Source: Nitrospiraceae bacterium
Lineage (GTDB): Bacteria > Nitrospirota > Nitrospiria > Nitrospirales > UBA2166
Length of the DNA stretch: 64,000 nucleotides
Assembly (NCBI GenBank): GCA_002726235.1
Contig: PBSN01000008.1
Location: forward strand, 386,635 to 450,634
Direction: 5' to 3'
Made by a program: the position numbers and the translations under genes. Of this stretch, positions 6,567 through 28,024 are shown in pieces. Numbering within the stretch: the stretch's first letter is position 1; the number at the start of each line of letters is the position of its first letter. The notes beneath the pieces were generated by a model that saw only the letters and a program-made list of their open reading frames with translations, searched no databases and was not told the DNA's origin.

Positions 6567-7529
6567 CTACCCCTTCGCACGATACCTTAGTATCGTGCCC
6601 TCAGCCCCAACTGCCAACCCAAAAGAAGGAGTGACAAAGTCTAGACTCCACAATGTTTTTGTTGTAGGACTTTTCCATTTCGTCCACGTTGCACCGCCAT
6701 CAACGGTATGAAGAAGACTCCCAAGCTCACCAACCGTCCATCCCTTATTCACATCGAGAAAGTCAATTCCGGTCAGTTCTATATCAATATCGCTGGGTTG
6801 AAAATTCCATCGTCGCCCAGCATCGTGGGTCACGGCAATAATTCCACCATCCCCACTTGCCCATCCGTGAGTATTATTCATAAACGACAAGTCAGTGAGG
6901 CGCATTGAAATCCCAACTGGAGAAAAGCCTATGACATTCATAGGTTCCCATGTGTTTCCGCCGTCAGCAGTATGATAAATCTCCCCTTGAACTCCACCTA
7001 TCCAACCATGAGTAGGGTTAACAAATGTGACGGCAGAAAACCATCCGACATCTGGAATATCGTGTGCAGTCCAATTTTTCCCTCCATCCGTTGTATGAAA
7101 GACCTCACTAAAGGTTCCAACAGCCCATCCGTGAAGTTCATCAAAAAAATCTACTGCAAGAAATGCATTCTTGTTGTCGTGCTTCTGAATCTCCCACGTA
7201 TCTCCTCCATCAGTCGTATGAAGAATGGTCATCATATCACCTACGACCCATCCTTTATCAGTAGTGACAAAGTCGACACTATAAAGACTTGATGAAACTC
7301 CACTTGGAAGAACAGTCCACCGATCACCCCCATCACTCGTACGTAAAATCGTCCCCGACTCTCCCACTATCCAGCTAGTTTTGTCGTCGAAAACCGACAC
7401 CCCTGCAAGATTGTATGTTGTATTACTATTCCGAGCCGTCCAGTCTTCATGCTCTCCCGGACAGCCAAGCACAAAAGCCATTGACAAAATACTCAAGGTG
7501 CATAACACCCTAGACCATGATACCTTCAT
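6567..7529 (-). CDS. YCF48/BNR-type beta-propeller lipoprotein
   Basis: Repeated 'GWAVG..GTILHTTDGGxTW' blades; lipobox-like FVLGCPG. Confidence 0.88.
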   Translation of the reverse strand: MKVSWSRVLCTLSILSMAFVLGCPGEHEDWTARNSNTTYNLAGVSVFDDKTSWIVGESGTILRTSDGGDRWTVLPSGVSSSLYSVDFVTTDKGWVVGDMMTILHTTDGGDTWEIQKHDNKNAFLAVDFFDELHGWAVGTFSEVFHTTDGGKNWTAHDIPDVGWFSAVTFVNPTHGWIGGVQGEIYHTADGGNTWEPMNVIGFSPVGISMRLTDLSFMNNTHGWASGDGGIIAVTHDAGRRWNFQPSDIDIELTGIDFLDVNKGWTVGELGSLLHTVDGGATWTKWKSPTTKTLWSLDFVTPSFGLAVGAEGTILRYRAKG

Positions 7530-9354: not shown

Positions 9355-9834
9355 CTAACACCCACCAACGGCCACATCTATACTGTGTTCAGTGACCCAT
9401 TTTCCATGCTGATTACACTCCGCAATAACATAAACTGTAGATTCACCAGAATCAATTCGAAGTTGGGTGTACAGATACACTTCGCCATTGTCTGGAGTAA
9501 AACTAAAGGTGCCTTTCCAGATGATTGGATCATGGTAGTCAAGAATTTGCACACTGGTTATGTAATGGTCCTGTTCCATAGGATGGTCCATTGCGACGAT
9601 AATGGGGGCGTTGGCACCATCCTCAACAACATCAGGCATCCGTATCATTGGAATATGCAGCTTCTCAAAAGGAGTTAGGCTCTCTCGGTCACGAGGAAAC
9701 TGAATCAGCTCAGGCAATGTCGACGCGCTCGCCACAGGTCTGCCGAGAAACCCAGATATGCCGAACGCGCCGAGGCTCCCAAACCATGCCCAGAGCATCT
9801 CTCGCCTAGTCAAATTCTTGGCAAATCGAGCCAT
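9355..9834 (-). CDS. soxY: Sulfur-oxidation carrier subunit SoxY, Tat signal, C-terminus ends VGGC
   Basis: Twin-Arg TRREMLWAWFG; DHPMEQDHYITSVQILDYHDPI..GTFSFTPDNGEVYLYTQLRI; ends AVGGC-stop; start at ATG 9834 with upstream GGGGTG. Confidence 0.88.
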   Translation of the reverse strand: MARFAKNLTRREMLWAWFGSLGAFGISGFLGRPVASASTLPELIQFPRDRESLTPFEKLHIPMIRMPDVVEDGANAPIIVAMDHPMEQDHYITSVQILDYHDPIIWKGTFSFTPDNGEVYLYTQLRIDSGESTVYVIAECNQHGKWVTEHSIDVAVGGC

Positions 9835-9898
9835 GGAACGCACCCCATTAAACGAATACTGCCTCACCCATTTATCTCCACAGGTACTAGTAAAATAG

Positions 9899-10768: not shown

Positions 10769-12103
10769 CTACTGCTTAATGGAAATCGCACTAAAGTAAA
10801 TATCGCTACACTGGACTGGGGGACAGGGCGACAACAATCCAGTATCATGTCGTTGATCCGACCACATGACAAGAAAACGTTTTGACTCACTCACAGCAAG
10901 ACTCGGAAAAAGCTGATCTTCTGACCCTCCATCGTCATCAATCTGAACATTTTTTGTAAACGTTTTCCCTCTGTCACGACTCAGGGAGAAAAAAATATCA
11001 AAATTGTCATATCGCTTGTCCTCCCAAACCACACCAATCGTGCCATCGGAGGTAACTGCGATACTCGGATGAAACTGAAAGGCATCAGAAGAGTCATCGC
11101 TCACCTTAATGTTAAGACCAAATGATTTCCCGCCATCGACACTCTTTCCAAAATAAATATCTGGCTGGCTATTATTTCGAAGATCGTGCCAAGCAATATA
11201 TATATGACCTTTCGCATCAACTGCCAGACTTGGGTTGAATTGGTGCGTCTTCGTTTCATCATCACTGACCATCAGATTGCGACTAAATGACTCGCCGCCA
11301 TCAGTGCTTCTTGCAAAGAAAATATCCGCATTGCCTTTCCGATGATCATGCCACGCAAGAACAATCGTCCCGTCCGGACTCACAGCCAACGTTGGGTAGA
11401 GCTGCCCAGCACTGCCAAATTCGTCAGTGACCTTGACATTGCGGCGAAATGTTCGACCTCCATCCATGCTCTTTGAAAAATAGATGTCGGCCTGCGCACG
11501 TCGATAGTCTTGCCATACAACGTAAATCTCCCCTTTAGTTCCTAAAGCAACCATAGGATGTGTTTGAAACGCAGCTGGTTCAACGTATTCAGGATCTCCA
11601 AATTCATCGACTGCAGGCTCGCGGGTTTCATCATCATTCACCTTGACACTCGCAGTGAAGCCCCCAGTAACACCAAGAGAGATACTACGAGCAAAATAAA
11701 TATCCTGATCTCCATCACGTTCGTCTAGCCAAACGACGTACACATGCCCCTGCGCATCAATGGCTGAGGTTGCTCCATACAAATGAGCCTTATCTGGGAT
11801 ATCATTTACACGAACCGACGGAGCGAACGTCGCTCCATCATCTAGGCTTTGGACAGCAAAGATGTTTGATCGCCCTGCCCGCTCATCCGACCACACCGCC
11901 ACAACAAGCTGTTCATCAGTCTCAAGCTTTCGAGATACCAAGCCTCGTTGACCGGCAGACAGCGTCATTGCGGTGACCTTCCCAACGGGATAATCAGAAA
12001 TCCGCATGTTTGACTGGCCTGCTGTTTGTCCCATCCGACCACTCCCAATCCAAAGGATCACTAGTCCAAGCAGGAGAATAATGAGGAAAAAACCGCGTCG
12101 CAA
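10769..12103 (-). CDS. BNR/Asp-box (sialidase-like) beta-propeller protein
   Basis: About six repeats 'DIYFxxSxDGGxxF...PSLAVxxxGxxxxxWxDxR'. Confidence 0.88.
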   Translation of the reverse strand: MRRGFFLIILLLGLVILWIGSGRMGQTAGQSNMRISDYPVGKVTAMTLSAGQRGLVSRKLETDEQLVVAVWSDERAGRSNIFAVQSLDDGATFAPSVRVNDIPDKAHLYGATSAIDAQGHVYVVWLDERDGDQDIYFARSISLGVTGGFTASVKVNDDETREPAVDEFGDPEYVEPAAFQTHPMVALGTKGEIYVVWQDYRRAQADIYFSKSMDGGRTFRRNVKVTDEFGSAGQLYPTLAVSPDGTIVLAWHDHRKGNADIFFARSTDGGESFSRNLMVSDDETKTHQFNPSLAVDAKGHIYIAWHDLRNNSQPDIYFGKSVDGGKSFGLNIKVSDDSSDAFQFHPSIAVTSDGTIGVVWEDKRYDNFDIFFSLSRDRGKTFTKNVQIDDDGGSEDQLFPSLAVSESKRFLVMWSDQRHDTGLLSPCPPVQCSDIYFSAISIKQ

Positions 12104-12113
12104 TGGTGGACTA

Positions 12114-12830
12114 CTATTTCAAGCTCTCAAGATATGTCGTAATTGCTGTGATAGCATCCTCAGAGAGATTGAAGTCTGGCATAAACGTTCCCTCGATGAT
12201 ATCGTCGGGGTTCCTCAACCAGATATGCTCCCATTCCCGATAAATCTTACTCCCAACATGGGTCAGGTCGGGATACATCGCCCGACCACCTCCAGCCTCC
12301 CCTTCCCCTATTGTATGACAGGCTCGACAATCATAGGCATTGACCAACACTTCTCCTGCCGCAATGTTCGCACCCCCGTGTTGAGTGATAACAGCCGCGA
12401 CATCAGGCGGCGTTGCAGTGGACATAAGAAACGCGGCAATGTCAGCAGATTGTTGTAGGTTTTCCCATGGAAATTGCGGCATCGGCGTCTCTGGATAAAT
12501 CGATCGCGGTTCATTCACAAATTCGAAAAGATGGTCTTCCGACCTGCGCAACCCAACCTCGGTAAGAGTTGGACCGACTCTTCCACCTGCCAACAATTTA
12601 GAACCATCTGGTTGTGCTTCATACAATGCCTCATGGTCAATGATATGACAATTTACGCAAAGGCTCTTCTTATACAGTTCTACACCCTTTACGGGATCTC
12701 CAACCAGCGGTTGCTCCTCCGCAAATCCAATAGTTCCCCCTAGGAACATGCCACTCAACAATACAGCAGCCCCGACATACCATATTCCTGTCCAGCGCAT
12801 GGAATCGTGTTTCTGTTGCTTCATTGCCAC
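12114..12830 (-). CDS. Di-haem cytochrome c, paralogous to 9899..10729
   Basis: CVNCH and CRACH; same YDCRACHTIGE...YPDLTHVGSKI...EW...W L..P block. Confidence 0.88.
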   Translation of the reverse strand: MAMKQQKHDSMRWTGIWYVGAAVLLSGMFLGGTIGFAEEQPLVGDPVKGVELYKKSLCVNCHIIDHEALYEAQPDGSKLLAGGRVGPTLTEVGLRRSEDHLFEFVNEPRSIYPETPMPQFPWENLQQSADIAAFLMSTATPPDVAAVITQHGGANIAAGEVLVNAYDCRACHTIGEGEAGGGRAMYPDLTHVGSKIYREWEHIWLRNPDDIIEGTFMPDFNLSEDAITAITTYLESLK

Positions 12831-12921: not shown

Positions 12922-12963
12922 AAAAAAAGGGGGAGAAGATTTCTTCTCCCCCCCCCTTTTTTT
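12922..12963 (-). terminator. Strong intrinsic terminator after the SoxA-like tandem genes
   Basis: AAAAAAAGGGGGAGAAGATTTCTTCTCCCCCCCCCTTTTTTT: 11-bp stem; T-tract on the minus transcript. Confidence 0.8.
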
Positions 12964-12994: not shown

Positions 12995-13639
12995 TTACAT
13001 GGCACCTGCAACCGGACCAGCCGGTAGAATTTTCTTGGCACCTGGTTTCCACTTCTTCCCTTTGCTAAAAGACGAGATATAGTTCGCAAGATCGACTGAG
13101 GCCTGAGTGTTTTGATCAATCCATTGGCCTTTGTTGAACGCCGAAATGCACATATTGTTCATAGCCGGAAGGTTCACCATAAACCCACGACGCGGCCCGC
13201 GTGGCTTCGGAAAGCTTACCGCAGCGCCTTTGAGGGTCGGAATCGACAATTTCGGACGAAACACGAATCCACCGGGTTTAATGACCTCAGTTGTAGCTGC
13301 CCCACCAATTGATCCTCCACCTTCATGACAACTCGCACAACTTTGTCCGGCATTCCCATTACCAAGCGTTGGATCGTGATAGATCTTCTTGCCTCGCTCC
13401 AACGAAGCTTCCATGGTATCTGGGGCGCTATTTTGCATTGCCTTCATTAACTCAGCCACCTCTGCATCCGACAAATACGGATCCGCCATCATTCTGATAT
13501 CTATGGGCTTAGCGTTGGCTAATTTCGCTTCCATTGAATCGGCCCCAATTCCTTTACCGGCACCAGCCGTTGTACCTCCACCTGCACATGACGCGAAAGC
13601 AAACAGAGGTATGGCTAAGAGACTGATATATCGTTTCAT
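12995..13639 (-). CDS. Mono-haem SoxA-like cytochrome c (copy 3)
   Basis: QSCASCHEGGGSIGGA..PTLKGAAVSFPKPRGP...NLPAMNNMCI..ANYISSFSKGKKW. Confidence 0.72.
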   Translation of the reverse strand: MKRYISLLAIPLFAFASCAGGGTTAGAGKGIGADSMEAKLANAKPIDIRMMADPYLSDAEVAELMKAMQNSAPDTMEASLERGKKIYHDPTLGNGNAGQSCASCHEGGGSIGGAATTEVIKPGGFVFRPKLSIPTLKGAAVSFPKPRGPRRGFMVNLPAMNNMCISAFNKGQWIDQNTQASVDLANYISSFSKGKKWKPGAKKILPAGPVAGAM

Positions 13640-13696
13640 TTCATCCTCCCATTGTCAGAGATCCTTAAGAACCTCATACCATTACCACATCTTTGC

Positions 13697-14233
13697 TTAT
13701 GGCAAGGTTGGCTTACCACCCGGCTCATACCGCTTTCCTTTGCTCAAACTGGCAACATAGGACTCAAGATCAATCGCCTGGTGAGAATTTCTGTTTAAAG
13801 GTTTCCCCTTCAAAAATGTCATCAGGCACATGTTGTTCATGCCAGCGAGGTCAGTGACGACCTTCATCGGACCTCGCACGGCCGGAAAATGCGCAGCAGC
13901 ACCCTTCAGGGTAGGAATGGCCACCTGCATGGCCTGTCCTTTCCACTTCATCTCTGTCGCACCCCCAACCGATCCACCACCTTCATGGCAACTCGCACAA
14001 CTTTGCCCAGTGGTGTTATGCCCTAGCTTTGGATCATTGAACATTTTATTACCGGCTTTAACAGAATCCTTTAATGTCACGATGTCCATGTCAGCCATGG
14101 TACCCATCCCAACCATGCCGGTTTCCGGTGACAACAACTTCATCCCCGGAAGAGACGCTGCTCCAGCATACGTAACCACCCCGAGCAATATCGCGACGCT
14201 CCCCAAAAGCAAAATAACTTTTGCCATTTTCAT
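13697..14233 (-). CDS. Mono-haem SoxA-like cytochrome c (copy 2)
   Basis: QSCASCHEGGGSVGGA..PTLKGAAAHFPAVRGP...DLAGMNNMCL..ESYVASLSKGKRY. Confidence 0.72.
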   Translation of the reverse strand: MKMAKVILLLGSVAILLGVVTYAGAASLPGMKLLSPETGMVGMGTMADMDIVTLKDSVKAGNKMFNDPKLGHNTTGQSCASCHEGGGSVGGATEMKWKGQAMQVAIPTLKGAAAHFPAVRGPMKVVTDLAGMNNMCLMTFLKGKPLNRNSHQAIDLESYVASLSKGKRYEPGGKPTLP

Positions 14234-14257
14234 CGCATTCCCCCTTAGGTTGGTAGA

Positions 14258-14827
14258 TTACATCGCCCCAGGAATTGGAGTCGGGACGATCTTTTTTCCG
14301 CCAATTTTATACCGTTTTCCCTTGCTGAGAGACCCTATATAAGTCTGAAGATCGACAGCCGGCCGCATGTTTTTGTTCAACGGCAAGCCCTTCATGAAGG
14401 TCATAATGCACATGTTATTCATGTCCCCAAGATCAGCAATCCGCTTCATCGGACCACGAATAGCGGGGAAATTCACCGCAGCGCCTTTCAAGGTTGGAAT
14501 GGCAACCATCATTTTCATGCCCTTCCAATTCATTTCCGCAGCGCCGCCGACCGATCCACCACCACTATGACAGGTTGCGCAAGACTGGCCCGTCTCGTTC
14601 TTACCCAACTTGGGGTTATTGAACATCTTTTCCCCACGCATTAACGAAGCTTCAAGGGTGTCTGGCTTCATGTTCATCATCATTTCTTTCATCTTCATGA
14701 CTTTCTCTTTCGGGATATATGGGTCCGGCATTGCCCCCTTCATACCCTCGCCGGCTATCGCATACAGCGACACCCCAAAGACTGCAACCGCAATCGCGGC
14801 ACTGATCAAAACTACTTTCTTACTCAT
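14258..14827 (-). CDS. Mono-haem SoxA-like cytochrome c (copy 1)
   Basis: QSCATCHSGGGSVGGA..PTLKGAAVNFPAIRGP...DLGDMNNMCI..QTYIGSLSKGKRY. Confidence 0.72.
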   Translation of the reverse strand: MSKKVVLISAAIAVAVFGVSLYAIAGEGMKGAMPDPYIPKEKVMKMKEMMMNMKPDTLEASLMRGEKMFNNPKLGKNETGQSCATCHSGGGSVGGAAEMNWKGMKMMVAIPTLKGAAVNFPAIRGPMKRIADLGDMNNMCIMTFMKGLPLNKNMRPAVDLQTYIGSLSKGKRYKIGGKKIVPTPIPGAM

Positions 14828-15167: not shown

Positions 15168-16130
15168 GTGCGCCATCTCGCAAGACATTGGGGACGGTCG
15201 CACCTTTTCCTTTACAGCCCTTATCCTTACTCACAAACAACTAGGCACATCCCATTGAAAGATACGGATACAAGCACCTCTCTTCTCCATTATAGCCCCC
15301 TCCAGCAATACCTTGCAGAGGTGCGCCGATATCCACTTTTGACACGAGAGAAGGAAGCGCGGCTTATCAACGAGTACCGCGAATTTGGAAACCGCGACTC
15401 AGGAATTCAGCTAATTCTAGCAAATTTACGCTTGGTCGTCTCAATTGCCGGTCCCTACGCCCGTCCTGGAATGGAACAGCTTGACCTCATACAAGAAGGC
15501 AATATCGGATTGCTACAAGCCCTCAAACGCTATGACCCGTCAAAGGGCACGCGGTTTGGATCCTATGCGGCATGGTGGATTCGAGCCTATATCTTACGAT
15601 ATGTGGTCGCAAACTTTCGTTTGGTTAAACTTGGAACCACGCAGGATCAGCGAAAGCTCTTCTATAACTTGAAGAAAGAGCGGCAAAAGCTTGAATTGCA
15701 AGGGTTTGTTCCAGACACAAAACTTCTTGCCGACCGCTTGAGCGTGCGCGAGAGGGATATATGGCAAATGGAACAACGTCTCGGAAATCGGGAAATTCCA
15801 CTGCACCAACCACTCGGAAATGATTCCGAGCAGACGCTTCTCGACATCCTCCCTTCCGCAGAAGAGCAGATCGACAAAAAACTTGCGGAAAAGGAACTCA
15901 AGGCGTTGTTTCGGAAAACGTTACGCGAATTTACTGAAACTCTTAACGATCGAGAGCGCTTTATCATGACACATCGCATTCTCTCCGAATCTCCGGTCAC
16001 ACTGGAAGAGCTTGGAAAACGGTTTGGGGTAACAAAAGAAAGGAGCCGCCAATTGCAAAATAGGATTATCGAGAAACTTCGCGACTTTGCAAAAGACAGA
16101 ATTAAGGACTTTGGGCAACTCAGTTTTTAG
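15168..16130 (+). CDS. rpoH: RpoH-like sigma-70 family factor
   Basis: Region 2 ...LDLIQEGNIGLLQALKRYDPSKGTRFGSYAAWWIRAYI; region 4 ...LEELGKRFGVTKERSRQLQNRIIEKLR; real start may be TTG 15255. Confidence 0.82.
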   Translation: MRHLARHWGRSHLFLYSPYPYSQTTRHIPLKDTDTSTSLLHYSPLQQYLAEVRRYPLLTREKEARLINEYREFGNRDSGIQLILANLRLVVSIAGPYARPGMEQLDLIQEGNIGLLQALKRYDPSKGTRFGSYAAWWIRAYILRYVVANFRLVKLGTTQDQRKLFYNLKKERQKLELQGFVPDTKLLADRLSVRERDIWQMEQRLGNREIPLHQPLGNDSEQTLLDILPSAEEQIDKKLAEKELKALFRKTLREFTETLNDRERFIMTHRILSESPVTLEELGKRFGVTKERSRQLQNRIIEKLRDFAKDRIKDFGQLSF

Positions 16131-16145
16131 GGTTTAGCCTACCTC

Positions 16146-16982
16146 TCAGGCACCAGTGAAATCACCATCGCTACCACCAGTTGATGGTCCTTGGGATCCT
16201 AAATAAATCATCCCATTCTCAATGTCATCCTTCACTTGCTGAACCCCAAAGTACATAAATTTTGCTTCGTCAGGACATTCGCGGCACAACAATAAACTCC
16301 GTCTGTCCGTTTTATGATGTCGCTGGTCTTGCTGAATCGTCTCAAGAAATTTTGATTCATCCATCTTGATACGAAGTCCACAAAAGTCGAGTAGCCGCTG
16401 TATTTCACACATTGGATCCTGAAAATAGTCATCATAGAAGGTCACGAACATTGGAATCCCAATGCTATGCCTAAATGCGATGTCCATATACTGCTTCCAA
16501 AGGACCATGCCGGACTGAATAGACCACCCATGCCGAGTTGCAAGTGAGTGAGCAACATCCACAGGATTCCGAATCACTAACACCAGACGCAATGCACTAA
16601 CCACACGTCTCCAAAATGGTAGCGTGAGCGTCGTTCGCGGATCTTTCCATCCCCAATGCAATGCCCCACGACGCCCGTATGCCCGATGGAGGATGGCGAC
16701 GGCCTCTTCCATTAGAAGGGGTATGTCCGACGCTCTTTCCCAGCCATTCTGCCATTGAGAAGGTTTCATCCAAGTGCCTCCTTGGGAAGCCAAAAGACGA
16801 TCGTTAAGATCCATAATTTCTCGATTTTCCCAAAAACCTAAAGGATTGTCGTCTTGGGGATCTAAGAATCGTTCTGGATCACCAAGATCAAGCCCCGCAC
16901 GATTGAGAAGACGAGCCACCATTGATGTTCCACTACGATGCATTCCAATGATGCAAATCGCAGATCCAGCAAGAGGTGTCAT
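16146..16982 (-). CDS. Sulfotransferase family protein
   Basis: IIGMHRSGTSMVARLLNRAG 5' PAPS loop; LVLVIRNPVDVAHSL 3' phosphate motif. Confidence 0.82.
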   Translation of the reverse strand: MTPLAGSAICIIGMHRSGTSMVARLLNRAGLDLGDPERFLDPQDDNPLGFWENREIMDLNDRLLASQGGTWMKPSQWQNGWERASDIPLLMEEAVAILHRAYGRRGALHWGWKDPRTTLTLPFWRRVVSALRLVLVIRNPVDVAHSLATRHGWSIQSGMVLWKQYMDIAFRHSIGIPMFVTFYDDYFQDPMCEIQRLLDFCGLRIKMDESKFLETIQQDQRHHKTDRRSLLLCRECPDEAKFMYFGVQQVKDDIENGMIYLGSQGPSTGGSDGDFTGA

Positions 16983-17014
16983 ATGTCCACGGCCATGGCA
17001 GACAGAATCATCTG

Positions 17015-18334
17015 TTATCGGTTTACCTCTTCACGTGATTCGACCTTCTCCTTCACTCTCACGGAGATGTTGGTCTCCATATAAGCCAAACCGACAAAAC
17101 GCTTCGCACTGTGGACTTGAAAGACAAGAAGGTCTTTTCGCTTGTCCAACATACGAACATGGGTGCCAAGCTTCTCTGTCACACCACAGCTTAGAATATA
17201 GTTTCCTGCGTGAAACTGCGTAAGGATTGAAAAATCAATGGTCAAGACCGTACCTGCTACCTGAGGGTCTAAGGGAAAATCAGCGTTATCAGTGCTGATA
17301 CCGTATACGGCAACACCAACTGGAGTGTGGATTGCCATCCCTACACTCGGCGTTGTGATATCACGATGAAAGGAAATGGTCATTGCGATCGTAACCCAGC
17401 TCCCCCTCTGCACAGCCCGACACGGCATATTTTTGTGATCGTAAAGCTCAACCTCAAGGATCTCTGCAGCACGCGAACCAAACCTATATTCCTCTCCTTC
17501 TAAGGCTGGCTGAAACCCAACATCTTCCAAGCCACGTTCACCATCATCGAGCCAATATGCCCGAGACCCTTGTGTCAACTTCAAACGCTCGACATATTCT
17601 TCTTCCCGGCGAGACAACAACTCCCTATAGGAGTGAAAAACATTTACTGGAGGGCCTGCAGTAAGCATTGTTCCATGATCAAGTAAAATGGCTTCGTCAC
17701 ACACGGTTTGTATCACCTGCGCACTATGCGAAGCCAATACAATCGTTTTCCCATCCCTCTTCGCCTGTTCAAGACGCCGGAAACATCGCCGCTGAAACAT
17801 GCTATCACCAACTTGAAGTGCCTCGTCGAGAATGAAGATATCAGCATCAATGTTTGCCGCAATAGCAAACGCCAGTCTAATGTACATTCCAGATGAGTAG
17901 GTCTTGACCGGTTGATCAAGAAACGTACCAATTTCCGCAAAGTCCACGATCAGATCAAAGCGTTCTTCCATCTCAGCACGATCAATCCCAAGAATAGCGC
18001 CGTTAAGATACACATTGTCGCGTCCAGTAAACTCGGGATCAAACCCTGCGCCCAACGCCAACAAAGCTGCGATTCTTCCCTGAAGCTGGATTGTCCCTGT
18101 TGTAGGTTGCAGAACGCCTGCGAGGAGCTGCAGCAACGTACTTTTTCCTGCTCCGTTTTGTCCAACCAAGCCAATAATTTTGCCCCGTTCGACCTCAAAA
18201 GAAATATCGCGTAACGCCCAATACTCTTCATGATAGCTTCTGCGTCGAATGGAAAACAGTTCACGTAATCGATCCACTGGACGACGATAAAGATTGTAAG
18301 ATTTGGATAAGTTGTGCACGACAACCGTGTTCAT
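17015..18334 (-). CDS. ABC transporter ATP-binding protein with C-terminal carbohydrate-binding-type domain (Wzt-like)
   Basis: GLVGQNGAGKSTLLQLLAGVLQPTTG; YSSGMYIRLAFAIA; long C-terminal extension. Confidence 0.88.
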   Translation of the reverse strand: MNTVVVHNLSKSYNLYRRPVDRLRELFSIRRRSYHEEYWALRDISFEVERGKIIGLVGQNGAGKSTLLQLLAGVLQPTTGTIQLQGRIAALLALGAGFDPEFTGRDNVYLNGAILGIDRAEMEERFDLIVDFAEIGTFLDQPVKTYSSGMYIRLAFAIAANIDADIFILDEALQVGDSMFQRRCFRRLEQAKRDGKTIVLASHSAQVIQTVCDEAILLDHGTMLTAGPPVNVFHSYRELLSRREEEYVERLKLTQGSRAYWLDDGERGLEDVGFQPALEGEEYRFGSRAAEILEVELYDHKNMPCRAVQRGSWVTIAMTISFHRDITTPSVGMAIHTPVGVAVYGISTDNADFPLDPQVAGTVLTIDFSILTQFHAGNYILSCGVTEKLGTHVRMLDKRKDLLVFQVHSAKRFVGLAYMETNISVRVKEKVESREEVNR

Positions 18335-18382
18335 CCGCTTCTCTCACCACACACTGCTGCGACAATCGCAAACTGTTTAGGT

Positions 18383-19204
18383 TTATAAAACATCGGCAAA
18401 TGCGGGTTTGGATCGCATGAAAAATAGATACCCAAATGCGGCAACCATCACCATGACACACGTCAATATGAGCAATCCTGCTATGTCTGGAACAGTCCCT
18501 TCAATGATTGCAAGTCGATAACCTTTGACCAGATGGGCCATAGGATTGATCACCAACAGTATCTTCAACGATTCCGGAACTAGTTCGGCCGGATAAATGA
18601 TAGGCGTGAGAAACATCCACATCTGGGTACCCAAGCCAATCGCATGCCCTGTATCACGTACGAATACCCCAAGACATGCAATCGTCCAAGTTAATCCAAT
18701 CGTAAACAAAAGCTGAAGACACACCAACAGCGGAACAAACACGACCGTCCACGTCAATGGTGTAAAAAATACGCCGACTACACCCAGCAATAATGTAAAT
18801 CCAATCCCAAGCTGAATCATTCCGGAAAGTGATACTGATAAAGGGAGAATCTCCACCGGAAAAATGATACGCTGCACAAAATGTGCGTTTTCTCGTATCA
18901 GCGATGCTGATCGATTCAGCGCGTCGCTAAATGTAAGCCAAGGAATCATGCCACACAGAAAATACACTACAAAATCAGCACTTCGCCCTCCCCCGAAACG
19001 TACCTTAAGGATTGTCGAGAAGACAAATGTAAAGATAAGGATGATACAAAGTGGCGTGATGACCGCCCAGGTAAACCCCATTGTCGTCCCTTTGTATTTT
19101 CCAACAAAGTCTTTGCGAATAAAGTCCGCAATAAGGCTTCGCGACCGATAGAGAGAGAGCAACAATGTGAATTTAAGCACGGCACGCTTCCTGGCTCGCA
19201 TCAC
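18383..19204 (-). CDS. Polysaccharide ABC transporter permease (Wzm-like)
   Basis: LIADFIRKDFVGKYKGTTMGFTWAVITPLCIILIFTFVFS; six-TM ABC-2 type. Confidence 0.88.
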   Translation of the reverse strand: MMRARKRAVLKFTLLLSLYRSRSLIADFIRKDFVGKYKGTTMGFTWAVITPLCIILIFTFVFSTILKVRFGGGRSADFVVYFLCGMIPWLTFSDALNRSASLIRENAHFVQRIIFPVEILPLSVSLSGMIQLGIGFTLLLGVVGVFFTPLTWTVVFVPLLVCLQLLFTIGLTWTIACLGVFVRDTGHAIGLGTQMWMFLTPIIYPAELVPESLKILLVINPMAHLVKGYRLAIIEGTVPDIAGLLILTCVMVMVAAFGYLFFMRSKPAFADVL

Positions 19205-19210
19205 GCTGCA

Positions 19211-20032
19211 TCACGTCTCAAAAGAATAACCGGACAAAAAATCATAGGATGCCATCTGCGCACGCACCCGCTCGATGTCGTCCTGATCCCAATCAATCTT
19301 ATGGCGACTCTTGTTTGGGGAAGAAAACACAACCTGAGAACATGCCGTCGTATAGTCGTCCGGACAATTAATCCCCAAAAACTTACACAGGGTCTGTAAC
19401 CACAAAACTGGGCGTTCAATCATTGCTTCATGAGGAATATCGAGCATGTCTTCGCTCGCCACTCGTCGCTTAATATCTGCCACTGTCTGATACAGTAGAA
19501 AATGCTCTTCAATAAGGCTTTGAAAATCTACCGTCCCGTGTCGCAAACGCTTCAAGTACTTGGTCGCGATATTATCGTAGGGGTTCCGAATGACATGGAT
19601 CAATTTCACTGGAAGAGCAATCGTTTGCTCCAACTTCCACAGAAGTTTGGGGTCATCACGCAAATGCAAGGTGGCTTGCTGCCCCTTCTTATCTCCAATC
19701 ACACGCATCGAGGTGAAGCGGCCTTGCCATTGATTGGAAACACCGTACAAATGGCCTCCCCGCGCCCTCCCGCGCTGCACACTCAACTGAGAATTGTGGA
19801 GAATTAACTCAAAGAGATGTTGTTTTCCAATGCCGTCTTGAATATATTTCATGGCATCAAGTTGATCGGCAATAATCACATTGGGATGAGCATCAAGCAA
19901 TGCCCCAATAAGTGAGTGTCCGCTTCGTGCATAGCCAACAAACATGCAGTAGGTAGCGATGTCGTCAAAGATCGTTGAACTGTCCATCCTGCCCTGGGGA
20001 GAAATCAAATGCTGTTTTGACATCACTAGCAA
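19211..20032 (-). CDS. Sulfotransferase family protein
   Basis: MFVGYARSGHSLIGALLDAHPN; KLIHVIRNPYDNIATKYLKR. Confidence 0.82.
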   Translation of the reverse strand: MLVMSKQHLISPQGRMDSSTIFDDIATYCMFVGYARSGHSLIGALLDAHPNVIIADQLDAMKYIQDGIGKQHLFELILHNSQLSVQRGRARGGHLYGVSNQWQGRFTSMRVIGDKKGQQATLHLRDDPKLLWKLEQTIALPVKLIHVIRNPYDNIATKYLKRLRHGTVDFQSLIEEHFLLYQTVADIKRRVASEDMLDIPHEAMIERPVLWLQTLCKFLGINCPDDYTTACSQVVFSSPNKSRHKIDWDQDDIERVRAQMASYDFLSGYSFET

Positions 20033-20081
20033 TCTAAAACAACATACTTCGATTGAAACATTCTACTGCCCGCCCTTACTA

Positions 20082-20936
20082 TCAATCATAGGAATATCCA
20101 TTCAAAAAACTAAACGGTTTCATCTTCTCACAAACTATCTCAATATCTTCCGGTTCCCATTCGATATCATTTCGAGTTTTGCGAGGCGCCCGAAACACAA
20201 TCTGCGAGCACTGTTCAGCATAGTCGGTCGGACACTCAATCCCCAAGAACTCACACACGGTCTGTAAACATTGAGCCGGATCTTCAATCATCAATTCATG
20301 GTAGATTTCAAGGTATTCCTCCTCACTTAACTTACCTTTCACATCAGAAACGGTTTGACATTGGGCAAAGTGTTGTTCGATGACATGCCGAAGGTTTGCT
20401 GGTCCGCGTTGCAAACGTCTGCGATACTTAGTAGCAATATTGTCATAGGGATTTCTCACAACATGAAATATCTTCAGGGGAAGTTCAATCGTCTTGCGTA
20501 GTATTTGAAGCAGCTCGGGATTTTCTCGAAGCCGCAAACTCGACTTGCCTCCCTTTTTGTCCCCAATAACACGTAAGGTCGTATATCTCCCCTGCCACTG
20601 ATCCTTGATTTCATAGCTATACCCAGTCGCTTTGCGCCCACGAAACGCGTGAGCTTTGGAATTTTCCCGCAACAGATGAAAGATCTGATATTTCGTAAAA
20701 CCCGCGTGAACATACTTAAGCACATCAAGTTCATGAGCTAGGATGACATTCGGGTGTGCATCAAGCAATGCACCAAATAAAGATGTTCCGCTTCGGGCAT
20801 AGCCGAGAAACATGCAGAATGTCTCAAGCTGCGTAAATTGAGCACGATGTTTTATCCCACCATATCCCGAAAGAAGATACCCCTTTATCAACTCTAAAAC
20901 ACTGGACCCAATGGGATTGTGGGAGAAAAGACTCAT
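20082..20936 (-). CDS. Sulfotransferase family protein, close paralogue of 19211..20032
   Basis: MFLGYARSGTSLFGALLDAHPN; KIFHVVRNPYDNIATKYRRR. Confidence 0.82.
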   Translation of the reverse strand: MSLFSHNPIGSSVLELIKGYLLSGYGGIKHRAQFTQLETFCMFLGYARSGTSLFGALLDAHPNVILAHELDVLKYVHAGFTKYQIFHLLRENSKAHAFRGRKATGYSYEIKDQWQGRYTTLRVIGDKKGGKSSLRLRENPELLQILRKTIELPLKIFHVVRNPYDNIATKYRRRLQRGPANLRHVIEQHFAQCQTVSDVKGKLSEEEYLEIYHELMIEDPAQCLQTVCEFLGIECPTDYAEQCSQIVFRAPRKTRNDIEWEPEDIEIVCEKMKPFSFLNGYSYD

Positions 20937-21838
20937 TGCTGATGAAACGTCGCCGCATATCGTTGCTCAAACAACGCAGTTGCAAATCGATAAAGTTCAC
21001 TATCAAGAGATGTATAGGATTCAATCTGAGCTATGGTTTCGTGCGAAAGGGTTTCCTCCGTAAGTGCTGGATCGCGTAGCGCGTTCAGATGGGGAACATC
21101 CATCGTAGTCGTCCAGCCAAACGTAGCTAGCAAAAGCTCCATCGACTCCGCAAAACGATCTGTAATACCAACAAATTCAAACGAGGCAAGACGCTGCTTG
21201 GCTTTTTCCAGTAGCTCATCATCACTCATATTTGTCGTTGTATAGGAAAGCAACTTTGCTTGTTTTGGAAGAATTTCTTTCCCATCGTCATCGTAATATG
21301 TTTGGGTTAGATCAAAATCTATTGCAAGATTACGTACTTGAAAGTTGGTAATAAGTCGTCGCGTCGGAGGAAAGGAAAGAAAATCCTCAATGGTTACGTT
21401 GGGATCAAGAAACCGCTCATGGCCCACTGATTTCCTGACACGATTTCGCATCAAATTTTTAAAACGTGAGATTGTTCGGCTAACCGGTTCCCGAATCATC
21501 GTGATAACACGAGGCACTTGCGGAAGCAATGCGATGAGTGTATGGCCTAGATGACCGGCAAACAATGAGTAATTAGCAAGTTCATTTTTGTCCCGCTTCA
21601 CGATATCGGCAAGTTCATGCATGTAAGAGAATGGCGCGATATGATCTTTTGAAAACTGTTCCTCAATGACGGATCGTAGCGAAGTTCCGGCCGTTTTTGG
21701 AATGTGGAGAAAGTAAGTTTGAGTTTTTTTAGCTTCGTTATGCATCAGCTTTTTCGACTCATCATTCAGCGCAACCGTATGATCATGGCGAGACCAATAT
21801 GTTTTGTAGCATGCGGTGATAGCGTCGTCCAAATACAA
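20933..21838 (-). CDS. Sulfotransferase family 2-like protein
   Basis: TYFLHIPKTAGTSLRSVIEEQF; RVITMIREPVSRTISRF. Confidence 0.82.
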   Translation of the reverse strand: MYLDDAITACYKTYWSRHDHTVALNDESKKLMHNEAKKTQTYFLHIPKTAGTSLRSVIEEQFSKDHIAPFSYMHELADIVKRDKNELANYSLFAGHLGHTLIALLPQVPRVITMIREPVSRTISRFKNLMRNRVRKSVGHERFLDPNVTIEDFLSFPPTRRLITNFQVRNLAIDFDLTQTYYDDDGKEILPKQAKLLSYTTTNMSDDELLEKAKQRLASFEFVGITDRFAESMELLLATFGWTTTMDVPHLNALRDPALTEETLSHETIAQIESYTSLDSELYRFATALFEQRYAATFHQQ

Positions 21839-21937
21839 TTTTTAGGTTGTTGTAATTGTGGCGCAGGGTAAGACGCAAAGACGGCCGAAGCGGAAGATAT
21901 CTTGAAATACGTAAAGATCGATCCCATAGCAACACTG

Positions 21938-22756
21938 TCATGAGGCAAAAGGGAAGTGTCCTGAAAAATTATGTTCAAATATTTCAGTAGCAAACCTATA
22001 CAACTCAGCATCAAGCGATGTACATGCCTGTATATCAGCAAGCGTCTGATTCGAGAGTGGCCGAGCAAGCCCAAGTGACGTAGATGAGGCATTGAGAAAC
22101 GGGCTATCCATCGTGCCCTCCCAGCCAAATGTTGAACACAAAAGATCAAGCGAGTCTCTAAATCGCTCGGTAACTCCCACAAATTCAAACGAGGCTAGGC
22201 GCCTTTTGGCCCTGCTCAACAAATCATGATCACTCAACCCCGTTGATGTATAAGCGAAGAGTTTGTTCATCTTCGGAACAATAGGATTGCCGGAAAAATC
22301 TGTATAAGTCTTGGTTAAATCAAAATCCTGTGCAAGATTGCGAACCTGAAAATTTGTGATGAGTCGTCGTGTGGGTTCAAATGCCAAAAAATCATCAATG
22401 CTGACATCAGGATCTAAAAAACGATTGTGCCCCCACGGAGCGCGTCCCGAACGTGCAGCATGTAGCCTCATATAGTTGAATCGTGAAATCGTGCGTGCAA
22501 CAGGATCACGAAGCATAGTAATCACGCGTGGCGGCGTTGGAAGAAGAGAGAGCAGGGTATACCCCATATGTCCCGCAATCACTGGATAGGTGGCAAGCTC
22601 ACTGACGTCCCGTCTCACCACGTCCGCCAATTCCTGCATGACAGAACAGGGACAGATTTCTTCGGGTTCAAATTGAGCTTCAATTATTTTTCGAAGAGAC
22701 GTTCCAGCTGTTTTTGGAATATGGAGAAAGTAGATTTGCCGTAGATCTGCCGTCAT
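21938..22756 (-). CDS. Sulfotransferase family 2-like protein, close paralogue of 20933..21838
   Basis: IYFLHIPKTAGTSLRKIIEAQF; RVITMLRDPVARTISRF. Confidence 0.82.
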   Translation of the reverse strand: MTADLRQIYFLHIPKTAGTSLRKIIEAQFEPEEICPCSVMQELADVVRRDVSELATYPVIAGHMGYTLLSLLPTPPRVITMLRDPVARTISRFNYMRLHAARSGRAPWGHNRFLDPDVSIDDFLAFEPTRRLITNFQVRNLAQDFDLTKTYTDFSGNPIVPKMNKLFAYTSTGLSDHDLLSRAKRRLASFEFVGVTERFRDSLDLLCSTFGWEGTMDSPFLNASSTSLGLARPLSNQTLADIQACTSLDAELYRFATEIFEHNFSGHFPFAS

Positions 22757-22788
22757 TGGAAGGGCGAAATCGTGTCTCGAAGTCGTAG

Positions 22789-24195
22789 CTACCTAAAACA
22801 CCTGACAATGTCATGACGGCACGGCGACAAGACAACATCCAGTATCATAGGCTCGGTCAGGTTAAGCATGACAAACGATTTCTCCTTTTGAAACCCCTTT
22901 GTTTTTGTCACAACTCGGTATTCACCCTCCGGAAGTCCGGTAAAAAAATAACGCCCTTCCTCGTCAGTCAAAGCTTTGTGCTTGAATACCGTTTTCCCAT
23001 CATTTCGCTGTTTGAGTACAATTTGCGCGCCAAGCACGGCCTTTTCATCGCCCTCATCATCTACACGCGTCACCATGCCACTTAATGCTGTTGACGCATT
23101 GCCTGACGGAGGAACGAGCCGAAACACCGCATCAAACGTCGTGTAGTAGAGATTACCATCGGCTCCAGTTTTCACATCTAAAGTCCCGACAGGCCCTTCA
23201 TCTACAAAATTTTCCAATACACCAACCTGATCATAGGATGGAGGCATAAGTTTGATGCGTTGCACCCGACCAGTATTACAGTCGGTAAAAAAAAGATCAT
23301 TGCGGTATTGCTCCGGAAAGGTATTCCCAGAATAAAAGTCCATTCCGGTTGGACAAATGGATGGGTTGAAGTTGACAATTGGGTCGATAAAGATTGTGTT
23401 GGGTGTTTCACAGCCCCCCATGCAAATGGGCCAACCATAGTTTCCGCCTGCCTTCAACAGGTTAATCTCATCATCATTTCTCCCATTCTCGCTGAAGAAT
23501 ACTCTCCCAGTTATGGGATGAACGGCAATGCCAAAACTATTGCGGATTCCAGATGCAAAAACGGGAGAGCCTTCACTAGGATTGTCCACAGGAATCGACC
23601 CATCCGCATTCACCCGAATGATCTTACCCTGTACGACCTCATCGTCCTGCGCAAGATCTTGAAATCCCGTATCCCCTCTGGTAATCAATAAAGTATTGTC
23701 GGGTAAAAATACAATCCGTCCACCATTATGTTTACCGTCTCCTGGCTGCCTCAAGATTTCAACTTCATCAATTCCAATCCCTTCAACATCACGAAACCGT
23801 GATACCACGATTTCAGTAGGGGTTGGTGTATACAGCACATACAGAAACTGGTTGGTGGCAAAGTCAGGATCAGCAGTCAAAGCAAGCAACCCCAGTCCAC
23901 GAGCACCTCCAACATCAAACGACGTCGCGACAGTAAGCGTGACAAAGGGCTCCGGCTCGAGAATGCCATCCTTGAGCACACGAACCGACCCGGTAAGCAA
24001 CTCGGCATAGAAGAGCCGACCATCGGGAACTGGTGCAAGAGAGACTGGAATCGCAGCGTCTGTGACGAGGGTCTCGACCTGAAAACCTATCGGTGGATGT
24101 GAATCCACCTCTGAAACACCAAGCAGCGCAAAAAAACAGACCCACATAAGACGTAGCATGATGAACCTCTCACGCTGGCTGCTGGCACTCCACAA
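22789..24195 (-). CDS. PQQ-dependent sugar dehydrogenase-like propeller with C-terminal carboxypeptidase-regulatory-like domain
   Basis: RGLLALTADPDFATNQFLYVLYT; KHNGGRIVFLPD; RNSFGIAVHPITGRVFFSENGRNDDEINLLKAGGNYGWP; C-terminal ALSGMVTRVDD..AQIVLKQ..TDEEGRYFFTGLPEGEYRV. Confidence 0.85.
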   Translation of the reverse strand: MWSASSQRERFIMLRLMWVCFFALLGVSEVDSHPPIGFQVETLVTDAAIPVSLAPVPDGRLFYAELLTGSVRVLKDGILEPEPFVTLTVATSFDVGGARGLGLLALTADPDFATNQFLYVLYTPTPTEIVVSRFRDVEGIGIDEVEILRQPGDGKHNGGRIVFLPDNTLLITRGDTGFQDLAQDDEVVQGKIIRVNADGSIPVDNPSEGSPVFASGIRNSFGIAVHPITGRVFFSENGRNDDEINLLKAGGNYGWPICMGGCETPNTIFIDPIVNFNPSICPTGMDFYSGNTFPEQYRNDLFFTDCNTGRVQRIKLMPPSYDQVGVLENFVDEGPVGTLDVKTGADGNLYYTTFDAVFRLVPPSGNASTALSGMVTRVDDEGDEKAVLGAQIVLKQRNDGKTVFKHKALTDEEGRYFFTGLPEGEYRVVTKTKGFQKEKSFVMLNLTEPMILDVVLSPCRHDIVRCFR

Positions 24196-24234
24196 CTACG
24201 CAATACATTTGACCTAACCTCATATAGCGTATAG

Positions 24235-27036
24235 CTAATTTCCAACAGCTGTACCCTGAACAATAGTCACATCTTGGCATGAGGAGTTGGATTGTGGACA
24301 CGTTTGCCCATCCCAAACGGATAAGCGAACTGGGATCCCAACAATACTAATCGTATACGCAAAACCTCCAAGCACTGGGTCAACTATCGGCAACCCCGCC
24401 TCCCCCAGAACCGCTACCAACGCATCTGGGCTAAAAGTAAGTGAACCCGGAGCAACTCCCGTAGTTAACACACCGTTATTTGTTAATGGCGTTGTTGATA
24501 CCACCTCGAGTCCATCCTCATCCCTACCAACAAAAGCAATCCTGGTCGCCGAGAGATCGATCAGAACAGATTCTTTGGACACGGCAAACGTCACTGGCGA
24601 AAAACTCGCGGTCGATACTTTAGGATTGCCAAGAACATCGAGCCCTATAACCAGCGCGCCACTGCGTGTGCCCGTTCCTTGATCTGGATGAACGGTAAAG
24701 TCAAATTTTACAGTCGCCGCATTCAGCGAATTCCCTGGAACTCCCAGAGTCGCCACAGCAGCGCTAATCTCGTTGACAGAAACAAACTGCACTTGACTGT
24801 CATCACGCATCACAAGGCCATTCCCCAGCAAAGTTATACTGAAATTGTCCTTTCCTAAGATAATCTCCCCCAAATTGGTAATACCACCTGGTACAGCCAG
24901 TACGGCTTGAGAACTGTTCGTCACATCACCACTCGTCACAGATGCCCGAATGGTAAACGGATTCGTCGCACACAATACCCCATTTGGTCCAGCAGGCACG
25001 TTAAGCACGGTGAACGATCCATCCGCACGAGTCATCACCGGTCCAACACCTGGAAGAGTCACCGCCACTCCAGCAACCGGTGTTACGGCAATGTTCTGCG
25101 AGCGCACAAGCCCAACTACCGTAGTACGTCGACAGGGAGAAGATGTAATCGCAGTGTGATACCACCCAAGCTTAAGTGGAGTTGGAAGCGGACCACACTG
25201 GACCTTGTCATCCAAATCATTCGCCTCGCCGTCCGTATCAACATCTATCACAGTGCACGAATCCCCAATCGGCTGCAACAGGCCATTCTTAATCCCATTG
25301 AGCGTTGGTACGTCGGCCACATTAAATCTATCAATATTGTCAAAGACAACGGACAGCACCGACCCAGCAGGACAATTCACATCTATCCCACTCGGATGAA
25401 ACGTTCCAAGCAATGTGGAACTCTGACCAGGTGGTAATGGAATCGGAAGCATGGCTGGATTAACCCTTGTGATTGAAAGCAATGGTGAATCCATTACTGG
25501 CGGCATAAGCAAGCATCCTTCGGAAAATCGAAGTTTGAGACCAGCATTGTTCACCACAAGCGACTCACCAAACTTCACCTGAAATACTCCCTCCCCGACA
25601 TCAGCGATGAGGTTAGACGGATCACTCAAATTTACCGCTCCATCGAGATCAAGTTCTGGCAAAGATACATCACGGAATACATTATCTACTCCGCCATTTA
25701 TAAAAACGGGCAAATCACGAATCGTCAGAAACTGTCCACTAGTGCCTCCATCCACCGTGACGTCTGTTGCGCGTATCCCAGCAAAAACGTCTGTTGCGCG
25801 TGCCCCATCAAAGGTAACCCTCGTCACCCCCGTCGCCCCAACGGGAACACTCATTCGAAATAGGCCATTGGCATTTGTCTCTCCCGTGATGAGTCCTGTC
25901 CCAAGTTGGACACTGACCCCCGATAATGCATTCCCAACTCCATCAAACACACGGCCTCGAAAAACCGTTCCAAATTCTCCGGAAGCAACTATGGCAACCC
26001 CTGTTGCACCAAAATTCGACGCAACTGCGTCAACATCGAGCATATTAATAACATCGTCAGAAATCAGATCGAGCCCATCAAGATATCCCACCTCACCTGC
26101 TCGTACTCCCAAGCGGTTTATCAAGATGGGAACATCCAAGCCATCAACCAAACCATCATCATTGGTGTCTGCAATTGAAGCATCAACCAAGGGTTCTTTC
26201 ACGGTGCCAACTTGAAGATCAAACGTTATTGCAACTTTATTTCCCGCAAAGTCTTTCGCAAAAATCTGCAATGGAATCGGTTCCGTATCAAGAGGGGTAA
26301 ACGAGACACGGATGGTAAACACACCATCCCCAGCCAAAACATCTCCCCCAGTTCCATCATCGAGAAGTCGACCAAGTTTTCCCGCACGCCTTCTGGCCCC
26401 AGGTTCAGCTAATTGATATAACTTGACATTCTTGAGGTCACCAATTGGGAAGCCGATCGTTTTATCCGCCTGGGGATCCAGAACCCTCACCGAAACCACA
26501 ACAACTTGTTTTCCACCTTGAGGGTCGAGAACGCTTGGCTGCACAGTGAGTTCACTCAACACAGGGGTAGCTGTGTGGTTGACAATCGAAAGAATGGCAC
26601 CGCGTTTGGTTTGATTCCTTTCCTGATCCGTTGCCTTTACTTTTAGAAACACACGTTCTGCAACCTCAGTATCCACAATCAACTGAGCCGTGAAACGCCC
26701 ATCTTCCGCTACCTCATCACCTCCAGTACCATCGTCAGTTAACTTCACTGTTTTCTTGGTCACACCTTTGCGGTTCACCACAACCTTCACAGTTTTGAGA
26801 TTCAAATCCGGATCAAACACAAGCGCGGATACCGTGACCACCTGTACGCCTATGCCTTGCTCCAGCACTGTAGGCTCAACGGTCACATCACTCAATGTGG
26901 GAGGTAGCGCTACCACGATGCTTGGAAGACACACCACCCCACATGCCACTATGAACACAACCAGTAACGGAAAACGCGCCAAATAATTCGATGTGATTAA
27001 TTTGACATATGCCACGCCGCATTGTATCACAGACAC
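24235..27036 (-). CDS. Large secreted multi-domain protein (Ig-like/choice-of-anchor repeats, dockerin-like Ca-binding segment, carboxypeptidase-regulatory-like domains)
   Basis: TNDDGLVDGLDVPILINRLG..LDLISDDVINMLDVDAVASNFGATG; two 'VSVQLGTG..TGETNANGLFRMSVPVG' type modules. Confidence 0.72.
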   Translation of the reverse strand: MSVIQCGVAYVKLITSNYLARFPLLVVFIVACGVVCLPSIVVALPPTLSDVTVEPTVLEQGIGVQVVTVSALVFDPDLNLKTVKVVVNRKGVTKKTVKLTDDGTGGDEVAEDGRFTAQLIVDTEVAERVFLKVKATDQERNQTKRGAILSIVNHTATPVLSELTVQPSVLDPQGGKQVVVVSVRVLDPQADKTIGFPIGDLKNVKLYQLAEPGARRRAGKLGRLLDDGTGGDVLAGDGVFTIRVSFTPLDTEPIPLQIFAKDFAGNKVAITFDLQVGTVKEPLVDASIADTNDDGLVDGLDVPILINRLGVRAGEVGYLDGLDLISDDVINMLDVDAVASNFGATGVAIVASGEFGTVFRGRVFDGVGNALSGVSVQLGTGLITGETNANGLFRMSVPVGATGVTRVTFDGARATDVFAGIRATDVTVDGGTSGQFLTIRDLPVFINGGVDNVFRDVSLPELDLDGAVNLSDPSNLIADVGEGVFQVKFGESLVVNNAGLKLRFSEGCLLMPPVMDSPLLSITRVNPAMLPIPLPPGQSSTLLGTFHPSGIDVNCPAGSVLSVVFDNIDRFNVADVPTLNGIKNGLLQPIGDSCTVIDVDTDGEANDLDDKVQCGPLPTPLKLGWYHTAITSSPCRRTTVVGLVRSQNIAVTPVAGVAVTLPGVGPVMTRADGSFTVLNVPAGPNGVLCATNPFTIRASVTSGDVTNSSQAVLAVPGGITNLGEIILGKDNFSITLLGNGLVMRDDSQVQFVSVNEISAAVATLGVPGNSLNAATVKFDFTVHPDQGTGTRSGALVIGLDVLGNPKVSTASFSPVTFAVSKESVLIDLSATRIAFVGRDEDGLEVVSTTPLTNNGVLTTGVAPGSLTFSPDALVAVLGEAGLPIVDPVLGGFAYTISIVGIPVRLSVWDGQTCPQSNSSCQDVTIVQGTAVGN
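25760..25801. repeat. 15-bp direct repeat with 27-bp period inside the 933-aa gene
   Basis: ACGTCTGTTGCGCGT at 25760-25774 and 25787-25801. Confidence 0.85.
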
Positions 27037-27148
27037 TTAAGTAACCTCACTGTGAGAATAGTCGCAACCACGGATAGTCGCAACGGTTTCCTCCTCATTC
27101 ATCAATATGCGGAAACCGAAGAAACGTCAGAATGAGATAGAAACATTT

Positions 27149-28024
27149 TTACAGATCATGATATCCAAACCACGCGGCAGAAGCAGCACACATCGATTCG
27201 ATACACTTTTTCTCTTCTATGCTCATCGCGCAACGCTCCTCCTCATTATTCCGGCTCACCAACGGTTTAACCGATCCAATCATCTGGTCTGGAAAAAACT
27301 GCTGGTAGATCCGCTGCAAATGAGGAAGAGGATCGACAATCAAATCTTCATATCTGATGATCGTATCGAAATCCGCACACATGATAATCTCTGTCGCCAA
27401 ATAGTTCCATAGGCCAGCTCGTCTGGTCGACTCATCTGCAACTGCAGCTAGCTTAAGCAGAATAGCCCTCTGTCGTTCATCGGCAAATTTAAACACCGCT
27501 GAATTGAGAATAGTCGCATGTCGAAGATGAGAAAAGGTCTTCTTCCAGGACCCAATGGTGTAATAGGGATGTCTCACCAGGATCACTATTTTCGCTCCTG
27601 GAAATACCCTGCGGATAGTCATCAATTGCGTCAAGTATGCGAGAGGGTTCTTCGTTCCTAACACAAAATCTTCGCGGGTTACCAGTGGGCGGTATAAACG
27701 ACGCTCCCCGTCATTCCAAGTATCGGAGACAACCATATTATCCACACACTGATTTTCAATCGCCTCGCCATTGGCGATCTTCGTTCGCCATGTCTTATAT
27801 GAAGAAAAAAATCCTTCTAATGATGGGGTTTCAAATAAAAAGGGAAGTTCACGAGGCTCGTTAAGAATGGCGAGATTTGGGAGATGATCGAGTAGATGTG
27901 CCAGTAAACTGGTCCCACTGCGTGGGATACCCGTAATAAAGAGCATTCGCTCAGATTCCTGAACAGTGAGGGTGAACGGTGGTGATGGATGCTGTTGACT
28001 CATGACATGTCTGGTAGACATCAC
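27149..28024 (-). CDS. Sulfotransferase family protein
   Basis: LFITGIPRSGTSLLAHLLDHLPN; KIVILVRHPYYTIGSWKK. Confidence 0.82.
   Translation of the reverse strand: MMSTRHVMSQQHPSPPFTLTVQESERMLFITGIPRSGTSLLAHLLDHLPNLAILNEPRELPFLFETPSLEGFFSSYKTWRTKIANGEAIENQCVDNMVVSDTWNDGERRLYRPLVTREDFVLGTKNPLAYLTQLMTIRRVFPGAKIVILVRHPYYTIGSWKKTFSHLRHATILNSAVFKFADERQRAILLKLAAVADESTRRAGLWNYLATEIIMCADFDTIIRYEDLIVDPLPHLQRIYQQFFPDQMIGSVKPLVSRNNEEERCAMSIEEKKCIESMCAASAAWFGYHDL

Follow-up and report, generated by a model that had tools for sequence, protein, structure and literature searches.

Three tandem mono-haem cytochromes of a Nitrospiraceae bacterium, here termed C1, C2 and C3, are members of the SoxA/TsdA superfamily, yet neither SoxA nor TsdA. 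As the conserved neighbour of this family is a predicted His/Met di-haem SoxX-like cytochrome, we read the two together as a divergent SoxAX-like module, which probably acts in electron transfer or thiol redox chemistry. This reading builds on homology, the conservation of one Cys, a fold match, a conserved neighbourhood, the loss of an Arg and the absence of SoxB, from which we infer the Cys ligation, the complex with the partner, the electron flow and the substrate. c-type haems with His/Cys ligation are rare, and the best studied of them belong to thiosulfate enzymes. The window, that is, the whole 64,000-nucleotide stretch of DNA analysed, comes from a genome (G000) of 1.87 Mb that is 90.65% complete.

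Three tandem genes and the family around them

The original prediction of three tandem mono-haem cytochrome genes agrees with three minus-strand open reading frames that carry the motifs it quoted and are transcribed in the order C3, C2, C1:

14258..14827, minus strand: C3, 189 aa, with a signal peptide, haem motif CATCH and MNNMC Cys140; PF21342 35.2 bits (cut-off 27)
13697..14233, minus strand: C2, 178 aa, with haem motif CASCH and MNNMC Cys136; PF21342 40.7 bits
12995..13639, minus strand: C1, 214 aa, with a lipobox-like N-terminus (FASC), a longer hairpin insertion and MNNMC Cys164; PF21342 25.8 bits, slightly below the cut-off of 27

Each protein contains a single CxxCH motif and, outside it, the Cys of MNNMC; only C1 has an additional Cys, within its lipoprotein-like FASC signal. 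N-terminal signal sequences, judged by eye, are present on all three. Sequence identity is 56-58% between C3 and C2 and 48% between C3 and C1, so the motifs shared among them are not due to chance. The haem His and the MNNMC Cys are separated by 53 residues in C2 and C3 and by 59 in C1, compared to 39 in TsdA, 34-39 in the N domain of SoxA and 43-48 in its C domain; the short spacing of canonical SoxA is indeed absent, as had been noted. The longer spacing results from a predicted β-hairpin inserted after the haem motif, at residues 70-83 in the AlphaFold model of C3.

Divergent from the triplet lies a gene for a sigma-70-type factor (15168-16130, plus strand), whose position is conserved in locus L052. 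Several sulfotransferase-family genes, adjoining polysaccharide export and glycosyltransferase genes, are found at 16146-28884, of which the two at 27149-28884 were confirmed by Pfam and the others assigned by appearance.

A family profile search retrieved strong single or paired relatives in G169, G308, G067, G117, G315, G332, G344, G444 and G446, bringing the carrier genera in the Nitrospirota sample to ten, the window's included. The 19 family sequences form one clade (support 100/98), in line with the suggestion that they represent a distinct family. The triplet of the window's genus makes up a 9-row clade (100/97), and each paralogue is shared between species, so the triplication predates the species of this genus. 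The gene pair in G332 is a separate duplication in the tree. Among 58 near relatives searched, no triplet was found outside the window's genus; an apparent absence in G001 was dismissed, as the contig ends directly upstream of the SoxX-like gene. The three genes in a row, which had been called unusual, are thus confirmed as a local expansion, and most carriers have a single copy. The triplication may raise the dose or separate partners. A plasmid search found no relatives of C3 on plasmids.

Superfamily membership, probable axial Cys and substrate site

The SoxA/TsdA cytochrome c domain profile PF21342 is passed by C2 and C3, and distant single-copy family members score 27.8-37.0 bits against the cut-off of 27. 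In the SoxA equivalog model TIGR04484 all three fall far short, at 23.3-32.3 bits versus a cut-off of 110. In the sample, PF21342 is found in 157 of 296 Nitrospirota genomes, where it covers true SoxA (L053-L063), TsdA (L065-L082) and small mono-haem proteins (L083-L102). The TsdA-like di-haem proteins have Arg and Cys intact and are common in the sampled Nitrospirales families f2, f3 and f4; the small mono-haem SoxA-like proteins are widespread and possess the same Cys without the Arg at C-4.

Profile comparison with hhalign demonstrated that the closest profile to the family is that of this small mono-haem group (99.4%, score 121), and the best match among named domains is the N-terminal haem domain of SoxA (98.4%, score 88.8), followed by the N domain of TsdA (94.9%, score 50.9). 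Compared to these, the catalytic C domain of SoxA gave 31% and a score of 27.9 over the haem motif only, so the order of motifs in C1-C3 does not mirror the SoxA catalytic domain, contrary to the original proposal. All full-length matches align the MNNMC Cys with the axial Cys of SoxA and TsdA. Moreover, across 53 aligned superfamily rows only one Gly, the CxxCH residues and the Cys at the MNNMC position are invariant, and the neighbouring Met varies. A PDB search with the 53-row profile revealed SoxA 1h31 (2e-31) and TsdA 4wq7 (7e-22), with the same column on the Cys of both; with a single sequence or the 9-row profile, the matches were weak and mostly limited to the haem motif (hydrazine synthase gamma, peroxidases, MauG). 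The MNNMC Cys, which had been put forward as a candidate His/Cys haem ligand, very probably holds the haem iron together with the CxxCH His, by homology. Membership in the cytochrome c peroxidase/MauG group (PF03150, in which C2 scores 27.7 versus a cut-off of 25.6) was rejected, as the match is confined to the segment around the haem motif.

The AlphaFold model of C3 computed with the 53 superfamily rows has a pLDDT of 85.5 and a pTM of 0.78; these rows were required for a confident model, the nine genus sequences by themselves giving a pLDDT of 38.5. Structural similarity search of the model against the PDB using Foldseek placed TsdA entries at ranks 1-9 and then SoxA 1h31_A, with an rmsd of 1.8 over 119 columns, followed by SoxA 2c1d, hydrazine synthase gamma and SoxA 3oa8 and 3ocd, so that, apart from one hydrazine synthase chain, the first 14 hits are all TsdA or SoxA. 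As SoxA and TsdA rows are present in the AlphaFold alignment, this likeness is not fully independent of the sequence comparison. Altogether, the PF21342 scores, the profile comparison and the fold match uphold the assignment to the SoxA superfamily.

An ordinary class I cytochrome, in which a conserved Met such as Met139 would supply the distal haem ligand and the Cys would have a structural role, appears highly improbable in the light of these comparisons. Met139 is invariant in the family and the sequences are Met-rich, but across the wider superfamily it is the Cys that is conserved and not this Met, which was rejected as a haem ligand. In addition, the two class I control profiles (73% and 4%, scores 33 and 20) align over the haem motif only, and TsdA and SoxA rank first in the fold search.

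Among named domains, the architecture of C1-C3 most resembles the N-terminal haem domain of the di-haem SoxA of SoxAX (1h31), with which they have in common the fold, the CxxCH, a KG-AA-(F/Y)P block, an INxC-type Cys and a Y..S(L/F)S.G C-terminal helix. However, they are stand-alone mono-haem proteins with a hairpin insertion and lack the catalytic C domain of SoxA. They also share the Cys position and the fold with TsdA (4wq7, 4v2k), at the top of the fold search, whereas the second class I haem domain of TsdA is absent, there being one CxxCH in 178-214 aa. The small mono-haem SoxA-like Nitrospirota proteins (ORFs of 119-206 aa) likewise have one haem, the same Cys and no Arg at C-4, but they lack the hairpin insertion and, in most cases, the KG-AA-FP block.

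The thiosulfate-binding Arg at C-4 is invariant in SoxA/TsdA (PMC4423706). At this position, equivalent to TsdA Arg119, the family has Met in 18 of 19 members and Gln in the remaining one. The Arg is found in all 18 TsdA and in 10 of 11 SoxA C domains, the eleventh being apparently shifted by one residue; Gln occupies the position in all 11 SoxA N domains, and Ala, Met, Phe or Val in the small mono-haem group. Position C+4, equivalent to TsdA Ser127, is Phe in 19/19 family members. With both residues replaced, the family does not retain the thiosulfate site, although a Lys at C-12, conserved in most members, might stand in place of Arg109, one thiosulfate-binding Arg, in which case some thiosulfate chemistry may persist. 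The suggestion of a thiosulfate dehydrogenase-like enzyme is not supported, given the missing C-4 Arg and second haem domain. Likeness to the N-terminal rather than the catalytic haem domain, together with the replaced Arg, sets C1-C3 apart from both SoxA and TsdA. Since the Arg is missing, the canonical SoxAX/TsdA thiosulfate reaction is presumably not run by the module.

A conserved SoxX-like partner

Downstream of the triplet, the window encodes the following features:

12929..12956, minus strand: strong terminator-like hairpin with a T tract, in the C1/SoxX-like intergenic region
12114..12830, minus strand: di-haem SoxX-like cytochrome; TIGR04485 59.7 bits versus a cut-off of 61
10769..12103, minus strand: exported BNR/sialidase-fold β-propeller; PF13088 40.6 bits; conserved in L049, L051, L124 and L125
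9899..10729, minus strand: second di-haem SoxX-like cytochrome; TIGR04485 88.6 bits, cut-off 61
9355..9867, minus strand: SoxY-like carrier with C-terminus AVGGC; PF13501 60.6 and PF01880 44.6 bits
8943..9332, minus strand: SoxZ-like protein; PF08770 59.1 bits
8475..8933, minus strand: mono-haem class I cytochrome c; PF13442 46.9 bits
7526..8509, minus strand: YncE/cytochrome-d1-like β-propeller; PF21783 87.7 bits; conserved in the long cluster
6567..7529, minus strand: Ycf48-like β-propeller; PF14870 195 bits; near the SoxA-like/SoxX-like pair in four SoxYZ-free genera too

In all loci whose contigs extend downstream, the family is followed by a tandem di-haem SoxX-like gene; a neighbouring gene for a SoxX-type cytochrome, as a SoxAX system would have, is seen throughout, in nine genera (L026, L027, L028, L029, L047, L048, L049, L051, L052 and the window). 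The terminator-like hairpin is present in two sister species, in one of which (L007) its stem is changed; given this conserved hairpin, the triplet and the SoxX-like gene need not share a transcript in the window's genus. After the SoxX-like gene, a long cluster in three genera (the window's, G332 and G344) continues with the BNR propeller, the second di-haem SoxX-like gene, SoxY, SoxZ, the cytochrome c and the YncE-like and Ycf48-like propellers, and in four of six short loci the Ycf48-like gene comes next or shortly after.

Three of the four SoxX-like neighbours tested exceed the SoxX cut-off, and both partner domains keep the conserved Met. Their di-haem nature and scores near the cut-off count against a SoxAX-like reading. 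Among solved structures, the partner profile matches best to SoxX 1h31_B and to 7zs0-7zs2/9fbk, which are labelled only as a di-haem protein and which, from the described architecture, we take to be Kustd1711. Kustd1711 is a di-haem His/Met protein of +350 mV with SoxX-resembling domains (PMC11791136); it is located in the anammox nitrite oxidoreductase cluster, whereas the partner here accompanies SoxA-like genes.

The mono-haem His/Cys cytochrome TfcP of Myxococcus, with a potential of about -312 mV, was judged unlikely to transfer electrons (PMC8833165). With this precedent, and with propeller genes as conserved neighbours, C1-C3 could be low-potential non-redox helpers that stabilise or metallate a partner, perhaps the β-propellers, and carry no respiratory electrons. 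We consider such a role decidedly unlikely: no gene of the cluster was recognised as a PilY1 homologue, and the invariable presence of a di-haem SoxX-like electron carrier alongside the family favours electron transfer. In the SoxAX-like module that we favour, C1-C3 would work as Cys-haem electron-transfer or thiol/persulfide redox proteins, with a low-potential, Cys-ligated haem that gives off or takes up electrons by way of the high-potential SoxX-type haems.

An unusual SoxY and the missing Sox genes

The local SoxY differs from the canonical carrier. It scores above the cut-offs of both PF13501 and the superoxide reductase profile PF01880. Its residues His71, His95, His101, Cys151 and His154, invariant in five orthologues, align with the iron ligands of superoxide reductase. 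This five-ligand set is absent from the canonical SoxY of Sulfurovum and Phyllobacterium plasmids in the alignment. Among 269 genomes sampled from the class, SoxY with superoxide reductase residues was found in four, each of which has the long cluster. The variant with the GGC end and a PF01880 match occurs in the window, L049, L051, L124 and L125. Only three of ten carrier genera have a SoxY above its cut-off, and that of the window is atypical; SoxYZ therefore cannot be the general target of the family, contrary to the proposed action on the nearby SoxYZ.

SoxB gave no match in 12 carrier genomes, the window's own being 90.65% complete, and the classical Sox cycle cannot close when SoxB is absent. 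The window's genome has five sulfite oxidase superfamily matches, of which the three examined score below the SorA, SorT and SoxC cut-offs. These findings bear on whether C1-C3 and the SoxX-like protein functionally replace SoxAX by oxidative conjugation of thiosulfate or sulfide to the GGC Cys of the local SoxY, thereby supplying the missing first Sox step. Consistent with such a replacement are the conserved Cys, the SoxX-like partner with a score above or close to the SoxX cut-off, the clustering with SoxYZ in three genera and the SorA-like molybdoenzymes of the genome. However, we regard it as unlikely in view of the catalytic Arg missing from 19 of 19 members, the absence of SoxB, the superoxide-reductase-like local SoxY and the seven of ten carrier genera without SoxY above cut-off. 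Where the long cluster occurs, in three genera, the SoxAX-like module would probably serve the unusual SoxY-SoxZ carrier.

A 2025 comparison of Nitrospirales reported soxYZ homologues and two sulfite-oxidase-superfamily molybdoenzymes in family UBA2166, and the remaining sox genes as absent (PMC12342949). Immediately upstream of soxYZ, these marine Nitrospirota carry divergent SoxA-like and SoxX-like genes that address the published gap, which probably arose because the genes diverge from the standard models.

We tentatively propose that the SoxA-like and SoxX-like proteins, together with SoxYZ, might constitute a SoxB-independent periplasmic redox system of Nitrospirota, in which SoxY would unite a sulfur-carrying C-terminal Cys with an iron site of the superoxide reductase type. 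If so, the SoxY carrier itself would perform redox chemistry on bound sulfur or superoxide. The superoxide reductase ligand residues of SoxY make a SoxB-free Sox-like module directly testable. As the Cys and the SoxX-like partner are kept while the substrate Arg is lost in all members, the family can separate the role of the Cys as ligand from thiosulfate chemistry.
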